Positions 50,941 to 60,611 are shown, numbered from the stretch's first letter. The stretch is 64,000 nt of DNA from Candidatus Zhuqueibacterota bacterium (GCA_016931935.1 JAFGDW010000097.1:1-64000), one strand, 5' to 3'. Made by a program: numbers and translations. Notes: generated by a model from the letters alone, not told the origin.

Positions 50941-51405
50941 TTATAACTGCCGCATTAATTCCGCCATTTCAATCGCCGACAATGCTGCATCCCAGCCTTT
51001 ATTACCAGCTTTTGTACCGGCCCGTTCAATTGCTTGCTCAATCGATTCTACGGTGATGATACCGTAAGTAATCGGCACGCCGGTTTGCAGACTGGCCTGT
51101 GCCACGCCCTTGGTGGCTTCTGCGGCGATATAATCGAAATGGGGTGTAGCGCCGCGGATGAGTGTCCCCAAACAAATAACAGCGTCGTACTTTTTGCGTT
51201 CGGCAAGTTTGAGTGCACCAATAGGAATTTCAAACGATCCCGGCACCCACATCACGTCGATATCATTATCCGCGGTTTCGTGGCGGTGCAGGCAATCCAG
51301 CGCACCTTCCAGCAGTTTGGACGATATAAATTCATTAAAGCGGCTCACCACAATCCCAAATTTTTTCCCCTTGCCGATGAGTTTTCCCTGGATGATGTTT
51401 GGCAT
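50941..51405 (-). CDS. ribH: 6,7-dimethyl-8-ribityllumazine synthase
   Basis: [55 protein letters not shown]. Confidence 0.95.
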
Positions 51406-51483
51406 AAATGCTCCACTTCGTATTATTTCATCATTTGGTATACTATTTAATTAATCAATATGTACATGCACTTTATCTTAAAA

Positions 51484-51542
51484 GTGATCGGTGATCAGTA
51501 ATCGGTGAAAACACCGGTCACCGATCACTGATTACCGATCAC
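51484..51542. repeat. Imperfect 24-bp inverted repeat (22/24)
   Basis: gtgatcggtgatcagtaatcggtg-N11-caccgatcactgattaccgatcac. Confidence 0.9.
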
Positions 51543-51554
51543 TGGTTTTACGGG

Positions 51555-52757
51555 CTAATTCAAAATCAAATGCCCCAGCTTGTCACGTTTGGTTTCCAGA
51601 TAACGCGCATTCACATGATTGGGCGCGATTTCAATCGGTACACGTTCCACGATTTCCAGATTATAGCCCCGCAATCCGATGATCTTTCTCGGATTGTTAG
51701 TCAACAGCCGGATTTTTTGGACACCCAGGTCGGAAAGAATCTGCGCACCAATACCGTAATCCCGCAGGTCGGCGGCAAAGCCCAGATCTTCATTTGCTTC
51801 CACTGTATCGCGACCATTATCCTGAAGCTGGTAAGCCAGAATTTTGTTAGCCAGACCGATTCCCCGGCCTTCCTGGCGCATGTACAGCAGCACGCCACGA
51901 CCTTCCTTTTCGATCATCTCCAATGCGCAATGGAGCTGATCGCCGCAATCGCAGCGCATCGAGCCGAGCAGATCGCCGGTTAGGCATTGTGAGTGGACGC
52001 GGACAAGCACTGGTTCAGCGCTATTAATATCGCCCTTAACAATCGCCAGATGATGATGTTCATCCACGTCGCTTTTATACAGATGCAGTTTGAAATGGCC
52101 GTATTTTGTCGGGAAATCAATGGATGCCTTAGCATGCACCAGTTTTTCCGTACGATGGCGATAGGCAATCAAGTCGCGAATCGTGATGATTTTCAGATTG
52201 TGTTTTTTCGCCACCTCCATTAATTGAGGAACACGCGCCATGCTGCCGTCATCATCCATAATTTCACACAACACGCCGGCAGGATAGAGTCCGGCCAGCC
52301 GCGCCAGATCGATCACAGATTCTGTATGTCCGGCCCGGCTGAGCACACCACCAGCTTCCGCTTTCAATGGAAAAATATGACCGGGACGTGCCAAATCTGT
52401 TGGTTTCGCATCGGGATCGATCAGTGTTTGAATCGTTATCGCGCGGTCTTTGGCGGAAATGCCGGTTGTCGTGTCTTTTAGCGCATCGACGGACACTGTA
52501 AATTGCGTGTGATGCCTTGCGGTATTTCCTTGTACCATCGCAGGAATATCCAGCTCTTTCAACCGTTGCTCCAGTATAGGCGTGCAAATCAATCCGCGGC
52601 CATGGACGGCCATAAAATTAATTTTCTCCGGTGTCACTGCTGAAGCAGCCATGATAAAATCACCTTCATTCTCACGGTCTTCATCATCAACAACAATCAG
52701 AATTTCGCCATTTCGGTACGCTTCAATTGCTTCATCAATCGTGTTAAATTTTGACAT
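51555..52757 (-). CDS. ribBA: Bifunctional 3,4-dihydroxy-2-butanone-4-phosphate synthase / GTP cyclohydrolase II
   Basis: [63 protein letters not shown]. Confidence 0.96.
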
Positions 52758-52758
52758 A

Positions 52759-53397
52759 CTAAAATCCTTGTTGCATCAGCCATTCGCGCGTGATTTTTGT
52801 ATCACTGCCAGCGTGTAGCATCAATTGTTCAATGTATTTGGCCAGCAGGTCAACTTCAATGTTGACCATATCGCCGCGCCGTTTGTATTGTAAAATGGTT
52901 TGTTTCAGCGTATGCGGAATTATCGCTAACCGGATGACATGTCCTGTTATTTCGGCCACTGTCAAACTAATGCCATCGATTGTGATAGAACCTTTGGGAA
53001 TCACATACTTGAGCAATTCCTGTGGCATTTCGATTCGTAAATCACCGCCTTCATTTCCCTGCTGAAACTGTTGAATTCGTGCGACCGTATCGATATGGCC
53101 TTGCACCAGGTGTCCGCCGAGCCGATCTTGCAAACGTAACGCTCGTTCCAGATTCACCGGCGCTGACGGACGCAGATCATTCAATGTCGTTTTTGCCAGT
53201 GTTTCAGCGACTGCATCCACACTGAAATAATCCGGGCCGACTTCGACCGCAGTCAGGCAGGCACCGTTCACTGCTACGCTGTCGTCAATTTTTAAATCAT
53301 CCAGAATTTTATTCGCTTGAATGGAAATGCGAATTGACGTGCTGCGTCGCTGAACCTGTCGAATCGTCCCTATTTCTTCAATGAGTCCTGTGAACAT
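52759..53397 (-). CDS. ribE: Riboflavin synthase alpha subunit
   Basis: [24 protein letters not shown]; duplicated [16 protein letters not shown]; start trimmed to MFTGL. Confidence 0.94.
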
Positions 53398-53865
53398 ATT
53401 TTTATCGGTCATTTATTGCAATTCAATTACTCTCAACCTGAAAAACGAGTGTGGGAATTATCAATTTTGCTTTTCCCCGATCAGCGTCATTAACTCATTC
53501 ATGTGTTCTTTGGCGTAGTGGTCAATTATTAAATGTCAAAATGAAAATTGTCCCAGTGTAGGAGTTTTCGTACGGTTTCTCCCTCGTCTCCTCCCATAAT
53601 TTGCTAAAATTGGGGGATTAGTGAAATCTTGAGTTTGCGCTAATCACTGTGGGACAGGCATCCCTTCAGGATGCAATCCTATATGAATTTCTATATCTGT
53701 TTTACATTTTTTCATAAAACTTTTGACACTACCATAAAATTAATCATACAGTACTATTAGCGGCGTGTAAAAGAAAATCGGTGATCAGGATTTTGATACG
53801 CTATTCAAGTTTACTATTCGTTTCACATTTGACGTTTCACTTTTTATCGTCTCTCGTCGAGCATC

Positions 53866-54966
53866 TCACGGGTACACCACATCTCCTTCCACTACAATAT
53901 CCTCACACAACTTGCGCACATTTACGTGTTTGAGTTGATAGCTTTTATCCACTTTTTCGATATGCAAACTACCAATGGCATCGGTGCCGCGCCCGATGAT
54001 TTTCGGCGCCATCATAATCACCAATCGATCGACAAGCCGTTCCCGCAGAAACGAAGTGAATATGGAAGCGCCGCCTTCGACTAATAGAGTGCTAATTCGT
54101 TCTTCGGCCAGCCGGTGTAATAATGGGGCTAATGCAACTCCGCCAAAATCATCTGCCTCCATTCGCCATATGGTTATCCCCATCTTTTGGATCTTTGAAA
54201 GTGCGATGGAATTGGGTCGTGTTGTGGCGATAATAGTTTGAGATGCATGTGCATCTGTTAACAAGTTAGAATTCAGGGGTGTCTGTAACTGACTGTCCAG
54301 TACAATTCGCCGCGGCTGTTTGCCCGCCAGATGCCGGATTGTAAGCCGGGGATTATCCGCCAACACCGTGCCGATACCGACAAGAACAGCATCATTATCA
54401 CAACGAATTTGATGCACCTGGGCGCGTGCTGCTGTCCCGGTTATCCATTTTGAATGGCCGGATTCCGTGGCAATACGACCGTCCAGGCTTTGGGCGATTT
54501 TCATGGTCACATAAGGCAAGCCAAGAGAAATATATTTGATAAATACATGATTGAGACCACAACAGGCATCTGTTTCAACATCTGTGATAACACTAATCCC
54601 ATGCCGCTTCAGTATTTCAATTCCTTTGCCGGCAACTTTTGGATTCGGATCCGACATGCCAATCACAACCGTCGACACTCCGGCTTTAATAATGGCATCG
54701 GTACAAGGCGGCGTTTTTCCCTGATGGCAGCATGGCTCAAGGTTAACGTACAGGGTACTTCCCTTGGCTTCCGTGCCAGCAATTATTAATGCATTTAGCT
54801 CCGCATGATTATAACCAAACCGTTCATGAAATCCTTCTGCAATAATGTCACCATTTTTCACGATGACAGCCCCAACCATCGGATTCGGTCGAACTGCCTT
54901 TTCTCCACGAGCCGCTAACTGAAGTGCCCGTTGCATAAATTGTATGTGTACTGATTTATCTTCCAT
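53866..54966 (-). CDS. ribD: Bifunctional riboflavin deaminase/reductase
   Basis: RPNPMVGAVIVKNGDIIAEGFHERFGYNHAELNAL; LEPCCHQGKTPPCTDAII; TMKIAQSLDGRIATESGHSKWITG. Confidence 0.95.
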   Translation of the reverse strand: MEDKSVHIQFMQRALQLAARGEKAVRPNPMVGAVIVKNGDIIAEGFHERFGYNHAELNALIIAGTEAKGSTLYVNLEPCCHQGKTPPCTDAIIKAGVSTVVIGMSDPNPKVAGKGIEILKRHGISVITDVETDACCGLNHVFIKYISLGLPYVTMKIAQSLDGRIATESGHSKWITGTAARAQVHQIRCDNDAVLVGIGTVLADNPRLTIRHLAGKQPRRIVLDSQLQTPLNSNLLTDAHASQTIIATTRPNSIALSKIQKMGITIWRMEADDFGGVALAPLLHRLAEERISTLLVEGGASIFTSFLRERLVDRLVIMMAPKIIGRGTDAIGSLHIEKVDKSYQLKHVNVRKLCEDIVVEGDVVYP

Positions 54967-55313
54967 CAAACATCCTGGATACAACGATAATATGCTATTG
55001 ACAAATTGATTTTGAGATATGTTTTAAAACTTCTCCTAATCTCTCTTTGGGAAATAGAAAAATTGATGGGTAAATCTTAAAACTACATTGTTAGCAGTAT
55101 CAAATAAAACGCATAAGATAGTAAAAAATCGTGACGATGTCAAGTAAACATTATGTCTTATAAGGATATAGTAATGGGTTGTTGGCTTTTTATGCAAAAT
55201 AGCGAATTTAAAAACACAAGAAAGGATAAACGTGAAGCCGTAAAAATCACAATTTTGCAGCCGTATCAAAATTAGAGGGAACACCAATTATATATGACCT
55301 GTACTCTGAAGGA

Positions 55314-55528: not shown

Positions 55529-56011
55529 TTATTCTGTTAAATTATTATCCTGAATTATTCGCAGATATGTTGCCAATTGACCCCGATGATGGATTTCATG
55601 ATCGATATTGCCGCGGACAATGATCCACCACACGCTCACATCCCCAAACCGCTGATCGTATATAATTTCATCCGGATTTTTTTTTGCGTAACTCTGTATG
55701 AGCTTGTTCCGATTTGCCCCGGTTTCATTCAATGTGTTAATTAGCGCGTTGAATTGATCCCTGTCAGTCACAATGCATTCCTGATTCTGGCCACGCAGGG
55801 GCGCAAGGTTTTTTATAACTACTTTTTTTAGCAACCAAAGATCGCACTCAATTAAGTGATGTGCGATATCGGCAAAACTCATGGCGTTCATTGATGGTCG
55901 CCAATTCTCCAAACCTTCCGGCACGAGCCGCAGGCGTTTCAATGTCGATTCGCGAACGGCTTTGGAAAATTCAACCAGCCGATCCATGTCTTTCTGATGA
56001 TCACTTTGCAT
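55529..56011 (-). CDS. DinB-like domain protein
   Basis: FADIAHHLIECDLWL; GNIDHEIHHRGQLATYLRI, spaced His ligands. Confidence 0.82.
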   Translation of the reverse strand: MQSDHQKDMDRLVEFSKAVRESTLKRLRLVPEGLENWRPSMNAMSFADIAHHLIECDLWLLKKVVIKNLAPLRGQNQECIVTDRDQFNALINTLNETGANRNKLIQSYAKKNPDEIIYDQRFGDVSVWWIIVRGNIDHEIHHRGQLATYLRIIQDNNLTE

Positions 56012-56183: not shown

Positions 56184-59100
56184 ATGCAGGCAAATTCTCA
56201 CTGGATCATCGGAATCGACCGGGGCGGAACCTTTACAGATATTGTTGCTCGTGATCCGCACGGCGAATTAATTACGTTCAAACTGCTATCGGAGGACCCG
56301 ACCCGCTACGACGATGCTGCCATTTTTGCATTGCGGCAATTGCTCAATCAACCGGACGATCGCCCGCTTCCACAACATATCATCCACTCCATCCGCATGG
56401 GAACAACAGTAGCCACCAATGCATTGCTGGAACATACCGGCGTACCTATTTGCCTGGTCACAACCAAAGGATTTCGCGATATTTTGGAAATAGGACATCA
56501 GGCGCGTTCCCATCTGTTCGAACTAAACATAAAAAAACCACTATTGTTATATCAACGCGTTATTGAAATTGATGAGCGGATGGATGCAACCGGTGGGGTG
56601 ATTGATGCCCCAAATCCTGAAAAAATTTCGGATCAATTGCAAACAGTTTATGATGACGGCTTTCGTGCTCTCGCAATTGTGTTTCTCAATACCTATCAGA
56701 ACGACACTCATGAGCAATTGGTAAAAGACATCGCCCGACAGATTGGCTTCACCCAAATATCATGTTCCGCCGAAACCATGCGCGTGCAGAAAATGGTGAG
56801 TCGTGGTGATACCACGCTGGTCGATGCGTACCTTAATCCGATTCTGCAAAAGTATGTCCGACAGGTGCGAAAGCATACGGGGACGATACCTTTAAAATTT
56901 ATGAAATCAGGCGGCGGCCTGGTGGATGCGGATATGTTCACCGCAAAAGATGCGATTATTTCCGGGCCAGCCGGCGGTGTAATCGGATATGCCCGAATCG
57001 CACGGATGTTGAATATTGATAAAGTCATTGGTTTTGACATGGGCGGCACCTCCACCGATGTATCGCGCTATGATTCCGGCACGGTGGAGAAAGTTTACGA
57101 AACCGAAACCGCCGGTGTGCGCATTCAGACGCCGATGATCAACGTGGTGACGGTTGCAGCCGGTGGAGGCTCGGTATTACATTTTGATGGTTTGAAGCTC
57201 ACTGTCGGTCCGGATAGCGCCGGTGCGAATCCCGGTCCGGCGTGTTATCGAAACGGTGGGCCACTGGCAGTTACCGACGCCAACCTGATGCTCGGTCGCA
57301 TCCTGCCTGAATTTTTCCCCAATGTATTCGGCCCCAATCACGATGCCTCGCTGGATGTAGAAATTGTCACGCAAAGATTTGACCAACTGAGTGAAAAAAT
57401 ATTTACGGCCACCGGACTCCGAAAATCGCCGCACGAAGTCGCGTTGGGTTTTATCCGGATTGCCAATGAAAATATGATCAAACCGATCAAAGAAATTTCC
57501 GTTGCCAAAGGATTTAATATTCAGGAATACACGCTCTGTTGTTTTGGCGGCGCCGGAGCGCAACACGCCTGCGCGATTGCCCGTGCATTGGGGATCAAAC
57601 GGATTCTGCTGCATCCGTTTGCCGGCGTACTATCCGCCTACGGAATGATGCTGGCGGATGTGACGCATGAGGATACCCGCGCCGTATTATTACCATTTGA
57701 TGAAACGCATGTCGATGAGTTGAAGACGATATGTACAGAAATGTCGATTCATCTCCGTGCGAACGTCATTGCGAAGGGTATCGAACCCAACCGAATCCGG
57801 CAACAACGATATGTGGACATTCGTCCCAAAGGGACAGATACAGCCGAAACAATTTTATTTGATGAATTTCTATTGACACGGCAGCGTTTCCTTGCTCATT
57901 ATAAGCAGCATTATGGTTTTCTGCCAACGGCCTCTTTGGAAGTCGTCAATGTCCGTGTGGAAGTGATTGGTGAACAAATACCGCTGGACGAGCCGATATT
58001 CGAATTACAACAACGTACACTCATTGTCGCCGATGCGAAAACAGTAACGGCTGTCTATTTTGATGATGGCTGGCATCAGCAAACTCCTGTTTTTGACCGA
58101 ACGACCGTTCAACCCGGCAATGTAATAACCGGTCCGGCGTTGATTATTGAACCCAACTCCACGCTCGTGATTGAGCCTGATTTTCAAGCCACAATCAATG
58201 AACGCGGTCATCTCGTGCTTGAAAAAATTGCTGAACATTCAGAAAAACAGCTTTCCACAGCGTGCGATCCGATTCTGCTGGAAATTTTCAATAATCTGTT
58301 TATGAGTATCGCCGAACAAATGGGCAAGGCGTTGCAGCGGACAGCGCACTCTGTTAATATTAAGGAGCGGCTTGATTTTAGTTGCGCAGTGTTCGATGCC
58401 ACAGGAGGACTGGTTGCCAATGCGCCGCATATTCCGGTGCATCTTGGCGCGATGGGCGAATCAGTTGCGCATGTGATTCACGCCAATCAGCACACCATGC
58501 GGCCCGGCGATGTGTACGTGACCAACGATCCGTATCACGGCGGTTCGCACCTGCCGGATGTCACAGTGGTGACGCCAGTGTTTGATGAAAATAATCGTCT
58601 GCTGTTCTGTGTTGCCAGCCGCGGACATCATGCCGATATTGGCGGGATTACACCCGGATCGATGCCACCATTTTCCAAAACGTTGGCTGAAGAAGGTATC
58701 GTATTTGATAATGTCAAACTTGTTTCAAATGGTGTATTTGATGAGGCAGGTATAATTGGTCGGCTTAAATCCGGCCCCTATCCAGCGCGCAACCTGCCCG
58801 AGCGATTGTCTGATTTACGCGCCCAGGTTGCTGCAAATATACGAGGTGTTCAGGAACTGCAAGGATTAATAGAGCAGTATGGTGTGGAAGTGGTGCATGC
58901 GTATATGGGCCATGTGCAAATGAATGCTGAAACTGCCATGCGCCGGGCCATCGCTACACTTGCTGATGGCGAACATCGCGCCGAAGACCGGCTCGATAAC
59001 GGCACGACATTGCGGGTCTGCATCACCATTCACGGTGATACGGCGCATATTGATTTTGCCGGAACTGATCCACAAATTTCAACGAATCTGAATGCCCCGC

Positions 59101-60611
59101 CGGCTGTCACCCGTGCGGCGGTATTGTACGTATTTCGGACGTTGATTGAAGACAATATTCCACTCAACGCTGGTTGCTTTGCGCCGGTCACGATTTCCAT
59201 CCCCGAAGGCAGTGTGCTTAATCCGCTGTTCGGCGCTGCTGTCGCAGGTGGCAATGTGGAAACATCCCAACGTGTCGTCGATGTGCTTTATCGAGCGCTG
59301 GGCATCGTGGCGGCATCGCAGGGCACGATGAATAATTTTACCTTTGGGGAAACCGGTTTCGGTTATTACGAAACGATTGCCGGTGGAGCGGGCGCTGGTC
59401 CGGGATTCGACGGCGCACATGCGGTCCATACACATATGACGAACACACGCATTACTGATCCCGAAGTGCTGGAACACCGCTTTCCGGAAATCCGGTTGGA
59501 TGAATTCAGCATCCGGCGTGGCTCCGGAGGTAGCGGTTATTATTGTGGTGGTGATGGTATTGTCCGGCAATTTCAGTTTTTACAGCCCCGCACTGTATCA
59601 TTGTTGACCGAACGACGCGTATTTGCGCCATTCGGCGTGAATGGCGCGGAAGCCGGCAGCACCGGGAAAAACATACTGATTCATACTGATAATACTATAG
59701 AGAATCTCGGCGGAAAAGTGCAACGGCTTCTCGAACCCGGTGAGCGAATTCGTATTGAAACGCCCGGTGCAGGTGGTTACAATTTGAATCAGAATCAATT
59801 GCAAACTATCACACCCGAAAATATGCGCTGGCTAATCCGTAACGGACGTTGGGACAAACCCACCAGTGGGTTGTGTTTGGATTATGTGCAAACCAATGTA
59901 TTAATAGTTCCGAAAGCGTATGCCGCTGATTTCGAAGCGTTCTGCCGTGCGAATCCCAAAGCCTGTCCTTTGTTGGAATTGCTTCCGGCCGGCAATCCAA
60001 TTGTCCAATCATTTGCGTCAGGTGCTGACATTCGTTCCGATGTGCCGACGTATCATATTTACCGATATGGCCGTTTATCCGAATCCACGCTACAGATTTA
60101 TGACTTTTGGCAGGATGATTTTGTGACGTTTCTGATCGGCTGCAGTTTTACGTTTGAAGCTGCACTTGTAGAAGCGGGGATTCCGGTGCGTCATATGGAG
60201 TTGCAGTGTAACGTGCCCATGTATAACACCACTATTTCGTGCGTTCCTGTCGGGCCGTTTGGCGGTAACATGGTTGTCAGTATGCGACCGATGAAACCTG
60301 ATCAGGTGTTGGAAGCGTACCATGTTACAGCAGCATATCCGGCTGTCCATGGCGCGCCGCTTTGCCGTAAACAAGATGATCCGGAAACGATGATTACCGA
60401 TCCGGTTGAGCTGGGAATATCTGATATTACCCAGCCGGATTTTGGTGATGCGGTTCCATTATCCGAAGAAGATGTTACAGTATTTTGGGCATGTGGTGTA
60501 ACCTCTCAAATGGCAGCATTGCATGCAAATTTGCCGATTTTTATTAGTCATGCACCGGGGCATATGTTCATTACGGATCGGAAGCATCAGGAGTTGATGG
60601 AGAAATTATAG
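56184..60611 (+). CDS. Three-domain fusion: HyuA-like + HyuB-like 5-oxoprolinase/hydantoinase + DUF1445/D-glutamate cyclase-like domain
   Basis: Hyu[31 protein letters not shown]; HyuB from ~58260: [42 protein letters not shown]-terminal domain from ~59793: [52 protein letters not shown]...[33 protein letters not shown]...[16 protein letters not shown]...FWACGVTSQ...[12 protein letters not shown]. Confidence 0.9.

Follow-up and report, generated by a model that had tools for sequence, protein, structure and literature searches.

A single gene in the 64,000-nucleotide stretch of DNA analysed here (the window) joins a HyuA-HyuB ATP-dependent lactamase to a complete DUF1445 domain. This fusion, together with the separate neighbouring genes seen in other bacteria, is strong evidence that HyuAB and DUF1445 work on the same metabolite. 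The gene occupies positions 56184-60611 on the plus strand and is one open reading frame of 1475 amino acids (P0001) with an ATG start and zero internal stops, running from HyuA (residues 9-674) through HyuB (695-1199) and a linker of about 10 residues into DUF1445 (PF07286, about 1205-1472). Judging from sequence, we put at roughly one in two the probability that the product is a bifunctional enzyme scavenging 5-oxoproline and glutamate, in which the DUF1445 half would perform an accessory step, most likely on the D-form. The initial annotation had described the same one-frame fusion, and the open reading frame, Pfam and NCBIfam bear out both its coordinates and its domains.

The HyuA-like half (residues 1-690; 56184..58253, +), an actin-fold ATPase subunit by Pfam and by mapping to CapA (6yra_A), contains the Pfam domains Hydant_A_N (PF05378, residues 9-187, 180.7 bits), Hydantoinase_A (PF01968, 207-496, 346.8 bits) and Hydant_A_C (PF19278, 621-674, 28.0 bits). 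It is followed by the HyuB-like half (691-1200; 58254..59783, +), a metal-dependent ring-opening subunit by Pfam and by alignment to CapB (6yra_B), in which Hydantoinase_B (PF02538) covers residues 695-1199 with 683.8 bits. A short linker (59784..59810, +), delimited by sequence and an in-frame start check, leads into the DUF1445/UPF0317 domain (residues about 1205-1475; 59796..60608, +), and the stop codon of the fused gene lies at 60609..60611 (+). Pfam matches this last domain to D-Glu_cyclase (PF07286, formerly DUF1445) over residues 1314-1465 with 190.8 bits, and NF003969, an NCBIfam model spanning the entire UPF0317 protein, matches residues 1203-1472 with 353 bits against a cut-off of 324. 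The main E-values range from 1e-53 to 1e-205, so these matches are not due to chance; a lack of any DUF1445 match, which would have refuted the initial annotation, is thereby dismissed. The HyuA and HyuB domains, which the initial annotation had also recognised, score above their curated Pfam cut-offs.

The HyuB part finishes at its natural 'PGAGGYN' end and DUF1445 has its normal start, near residue 1205; the junction has few in-frame start codons and neither a ribosome-binding site nor a convincing internal start. GC content is even over the junction (0.49 in HyuA, 0.52 in HyuB and 0.475 in DUF1445), and in a composition check for recent horizontal origin the fused gene resembled the nearby rib genes. 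An assembly error at ~59.8 kb, a concern raised with the initial annotation, or a binning artefact would fit a single case in a draft genome of 381 contigs with an estimated contamination of 4.56%. However, such an artefact is extremely unlikely given the clean, in-frame and domain-complete join, the even composition and the host genome (G000), in which a search found a single HyuB and a single DUF1445, both in the fused gene. In addition, RibBA, 3.4 kb from the fused gene on the same contig, shares 72-80% identity with full-length copies from the same family and order, which places the contig in its bin. PxpA (PF03746) was absent from the host genome in a profile search whose positive controls matched. 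The neighbours of the fused gene in the window are rib genes, a DinB-like gene and a Gfo/Idh oxidoreductase; the riboflavin cluster ribH-ribBA-ribE-ribD (50941-54984, minus strand) lies upstream, and the DinB-like gene (55529-56011) sits between this cluster and the fused gene.

HyuAB relatives open various lactams, hydantoins and caprolactam included. Pfam scores and catalytic residues both place the fused protein in the HyuA/HyuB ATP-dependent lactamase (oxoprolinase/hydantoinase) family, and since this family hydrolyses several lactams, '5-oxoprolinase' is a label that we infer for it. Aligned to 6yra, the HyuA half keeps D12 and D285, equivalent to the ATP-site Asp pair D11 and D295 of CapA, and the HyuB half keeps the metal ligands D731, H789, D792 and H815, equivalent to D41, H99, D102 and H124 of CapB; all six equivalent ATP and metal sites are reported to be essential in the caprolactamase CapAB (PMC8453981). 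With 367.4 and 167.3 bits, the protein falls far below the NCBIfam equivalog cut-off for CapAB (1000 per subunit). CapAB (6yra) and the solved N-methylhydantoinase (7hk5) share with it the HyuA/HyuB folds and the ATP and metal sites, but are split, or fused without DUF1445, and act on other substrates. In a tree, its HyuB groups with the DUF1445-linked fused HyuABs and with some HyuBs of the same phylum in a single clade (support 100/100), and other HyuB paralogues fall outside. The open literature yielded no member of this HyuAB clade with a measured activity.

DUF1445, also called UPF0317, 'putative hydro-lyase' and 'D-glutamate cyclase', is widespread in bacteria and is also found in fungi and vertebrates; in the open literature we found no bacterial member with a measured function or activity. 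In an alignment of 115 sequences, the near-invariant residues are retained in the fused protein, including C1261, C1320, H1389, C1437 and H1456. Deviations are M1403 for His, T1405 for Gly, T1432 and S1441 for prolines and S1455 for Thr, those at 1403 and 1405 adjoining a 9-residue insert (about 1394-1402) that is unique to this protein in the alignment. A His at 1403 is present in 105/115 sequences, the fused protein being among the 10 without it; because this His is not invariant, we reject the loss of a catalytic residue, a possibility that the initial annotation had held open. The equivalents of C1320, C1437 and H1456 are jointly lost in one divergent clade (L122, L123 and L125, from G279, G359 and G282), which suggests that the three form one site. 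There they are replaced by Ser, Ser and Ala or Val, and neither oxoprolinase is adjacent; this clade offers a natural test of the DUF1445 active site, or may represent a new function.

The AlphaFold model of the DUF1445 half (pLDDT 95.8) matches the UPF0317 structures 2pif and 3db9 with TM-scores of 0.92-0.93 on target length. Outside its own family, the sole significant Foldseek match is a weak one to the nitrogen repressor-like protein MJ0159 (3nek; E 1e-4, TM 0.36-0.43), which may point to a distant relationship between the folds. An Asp/Glu racemase fold, looked for because of the paired Cys, is not among the listed matches of the model, so a racemase reading of the domain would be speculative, drawing on its residues and on pathway logic.

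Searches with PF07286 returned 67 genes in 64 of 398 genomes from the phylum of a Chromatiales MAG, and DUF1445 was present in 13 of 388 mixed relatives, 26 of 346 genomes from a second phylum and 120 of 188 from a third. Among the approximately 220 DUF1445 genes surveyed, only the window's gene has HyuAB joined to DUF1445. Other apparent PxpA-DUF1445 and HyuB-DUF1445 fusions (open frames of 500-950 aa) were overlapping frames in the cases checked. The window's own phylum has DUF1445 in 2/82 genomes, the second one unfused, and several relatives from this phylum have HyuAB without DUF1445, in one case as a fused protein (51% identity). Earlier work already covers both domain families and, in Bacillus, the neighbourhood of DUF1445 with Pxp genes (PMC10448178). 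We found no description of the HyuAB-DUF1445 fusion or of the recurrent HyuAB linkage in the open-access papers searched.

Unfused DUF1445 genes were placed in context using 104 neighbourhoods of about 20 kb each, comprising 65 sampled Pseudomonadota-type loci, 20 chosen from the phylum of one genome (G740) and 19 others. HyuB lies within about 10 kb of the unfused gene in 14 of the 104 and PxpA/B/C in 52, with 38 adjoining neither oxoprolinase; Pxp is the partner at 18 of the 20 loci from the phylum of G740. HyuB and Pxp are never found together (0/104), for which the chance is 2e-5 overall and 0.005 in the Pseudomonadota sample, both figures ignoring phylogeny. If HyuB occurs at roughly 1.7 per 5 Mb, finding at least 8 of the 65 Pseudomonadota loci beside it would have p = 2e-8, and 10 were observed. 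The HyuAB partnership is scattered over the DUF1445 tree, where well-supported branches force at least 7 separate changes, implying that HyuAB and PxpABC have repeatedly swapped places. PxpABC is known to be a 5-oxoprolinase, and the finding that DUF1445 genes of a single family can have either enzyme as neighbour is the strongest argument we have that the HyuAB of the fused protein opens 5-oxoproline as well. Within the HyuB class of the fused protein, 8/9 members from 20 DUF1445-bearing genomes adjoin DUF1445, a preference within such genomes and not an overall frequency, as all nine come from genomes picked for DUF1445. The initial annotation had offered the fusion as a Rosetta-stone argument for DUF1445 function and had proposed a survey of other genomes for the same architecture. 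The architecture proved unique among the genes surveyed; the unfused linkage recurs, and the argument gains strength beyond what the initial annotation could draw on, since free DUF1445 genes adjoin two unrelated lactam hydrolases again and again.

Profile searches of the E. coli and C. glutamicum controls found PxpA present and DUF1445 absent, and in C. glutamicum pxpTABC supports growth on L-5-oxoproline (PMC13274462). Having PxpA without DUF1445, these two species indicate that DUF1445 is accessory and dispensable for plain L-5-oxoproline use.

The operon types among these neighbourhoods include DUF1445-MFS-HyuAB in Paraburkholderia and Rhizobium, DUF1445-TRAP-HyuAB, and NRAMP-PxpA-DUF1445-PxpBC-biotin carboxylase, the importers in linked operons thus being of the MFS, TRAP and NRAMP types. 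A further locus, L210, reads HyuAB-PPIase-DUF1445, the gene order expected of a fusion precursor. Where a fused HyuA-HyuB lies beside DUF1445 (L019, Paraburkholderia, DUF1445-MFS-HyuAB; L018, Chromatiales, DUF1445-TRAP-HyuAB; and L210), both parts are about 50% identical to the fused protein, and the HyuAB clade, DUF1445 family and functional set are held in common; these loci encode DUF1445 on its own and usually a transporter as well, whereas the window's gene carries DUF1445 as its C-terminal domain and has no transporter gene next to it. PxpABC operons with DUF1445, such as ycsF-ycsG-ycsI-kipI-kipA of B. subtilis, likewise partner the domain with an ATP-dependent 5-oxoprolinase, but PxpABC is unrelated in sequence to HyuAB and DUF1445 is unfused. 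Two structures, 2pfz and 2pfy, rank high among the PDB matches of the TRAP receptors beside DUF1445, with other receptors scoring as well or better. We take these structures to be BP1887 and BP1891 of Bordetella, receptors for which pyroglutamate binding is reported (PMC12344293).

Some operons read DUF1445-PxpABC-DUF4392-aminotransferase, and the best match of this aminotransferase family is a D-amino-acid transaminase at 245.6 bits, below the curated cut-off of 277.45. These operons put both halves of mammalian DGLUCY with an oxoprolinase, and point to a D-configured pool. DUF1445 and DUF4392 occur as separate neighbouring genes at L089, L090, L025, L088 and L098, accompanied at L089 and L090 by Pxp genes and a D-amino-acid-transaminase-like gene. 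DUF2848 adjoins DUF1445 at L069, L071, L075, L092, L094, L096, L100-L102, L108, L113, L115-L118 and L017, usually with a TRAP transporter; 8/15 of the Pseudomonadota cases are without any oxoprolinase, and DUF2848 is a possible third partner of DUF1445. Two Acinetobacter 'phage' records (CAKLQH020000001.1 and CAKLQF020000001.1; 328 and 379 kb) also contain a full DUF1445 gene, and both may be bacterial sequence misfiled as phage.

In a bifunctional scavenging enzyme, the HyuA-HyuB part would use ATP to phosphorylate a lactam, most likely 5-oxoproline, which would pass to the HyuB metal site for ring opening. The DUF1445 part would contribute an accessory step within this C5 metabolite pool, superfluous for plain L-5-oxoproline use. 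It would most likely handle D-configured glutamate or 5-oxoproline, either by isomerisation or by cyclisation of the kind reported for DGLUCY, and might thereby admit both configurations to the pathway. The architecture, the retained catalytic residues of HyuAB, the conserved residues of DUF1445 and the recurrent gene linkage are demonstrated here, and from there we infer 5-oxoproline as the substrate, the D-configuration role and any channelling. A more specific version, which we regard as quite unlikely, makes DUF1445 a cofactor-independent isomerase of 5-oxoproline (or of D-/L-glutamate) with a non-racemase-like fold and a Cys/Cys/His site, the fused protein then converting either 5-oxoproline enantiomer to L-glutamate. 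If it were true, the Pfam name 'D-glutamate cyclase' would be wrong for bacterial DUF1445 members.

The chemistry put forward in the initial annotation was instead that DUF1445 cyclises D-glutamate and channels the product to HyuAB, which hydrolyses it to glutamate and so recycles D-Glu from peptidoglycan. Mammalian DGLUCY, which shares its DUF1445 domain with the fused protein, makes 5-oxo-D-proline from D-Glu (PMC5339696), and the joining of DUF1445 to oxoprolinases, by fusion or in operons, and the DUF4392 and D-transaminase-like genes of some of these operons are in keeping with such a model. However, that activity was measured on full-length DGLUCY and assigned to neither domain (PMC5339696; PMC5132392). 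DGLUCY has DUF1445 fused to DUF4392, which a Pfam search did not find in the fused protein, in place of HyuAB, and TON_0340, which is homologous to DUF4392, has a metal site of its own and acts as a phosphatase (PMC5132392). Moreover, cyclisation runs downhill, with a Keq for [L-Glu]/[5-oxoproline] of about 0.035 (PMC13274462), so a cyclase paired with ATP-driven re-opening would spend ATP to no effect if both steps act on one enantiomer. To be productive, the pathway must change the configuration or use a different substrate, and we therefore keep the proposed functional linkage and downgrade its chemistry to unlikely. Nothing in the window supports the recycling of peptidoglycan D-Glu, no cell-wall recycling genes adjoining the fused gene there.

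Alternatively, HyuAB might open another cyclic amide, a hydantoin or other lactam, with DUF1445 acting on the open-chain product. N-methylhydantoinase and caprolactamase belong to the HyuAB family, and some DUF1445 operons without any oxoprolinase have a C-N hydrolase or DUF2848. This reading is quite unlikely, as the finding that PxpABC can stand in for HyuAB next to DUF1445 genes of one family favours 5-oxoproline, the solved N-methylhydantoinase is without a His equivalent to the H815 of the fused protein, and the fused protein is itself without the vicinal Cys pair of caprolactamase at the aligned CapB position (PMC8453981). It is very unlikely that DUF1445 is a non-enzymatic ligand-sensing or allosteric domain gating ATP hydrolysis by HyuAB. 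The similarity to MJ0159 would suit such a role, but the near-invariant set of C1320, C1437 and H1456, with its joint loss in one clade, looks catalytic, and elsewhere DUF1445 is a stand-alone gene of metabolic operons.

The fusion, and the fact that DUF1445 has paired repeatedly and independently with two ATP-dependent lactam hydrolases unrelated to each other, narrow the substrate of DUF1445 to the 5-oxoproline/glutamate pool. The fused protein makes the function of DUF1445 directly testable, with one protein and few substrates, and knowing that function would also help to tell which domain of human DGLUCY is the catalytic one.
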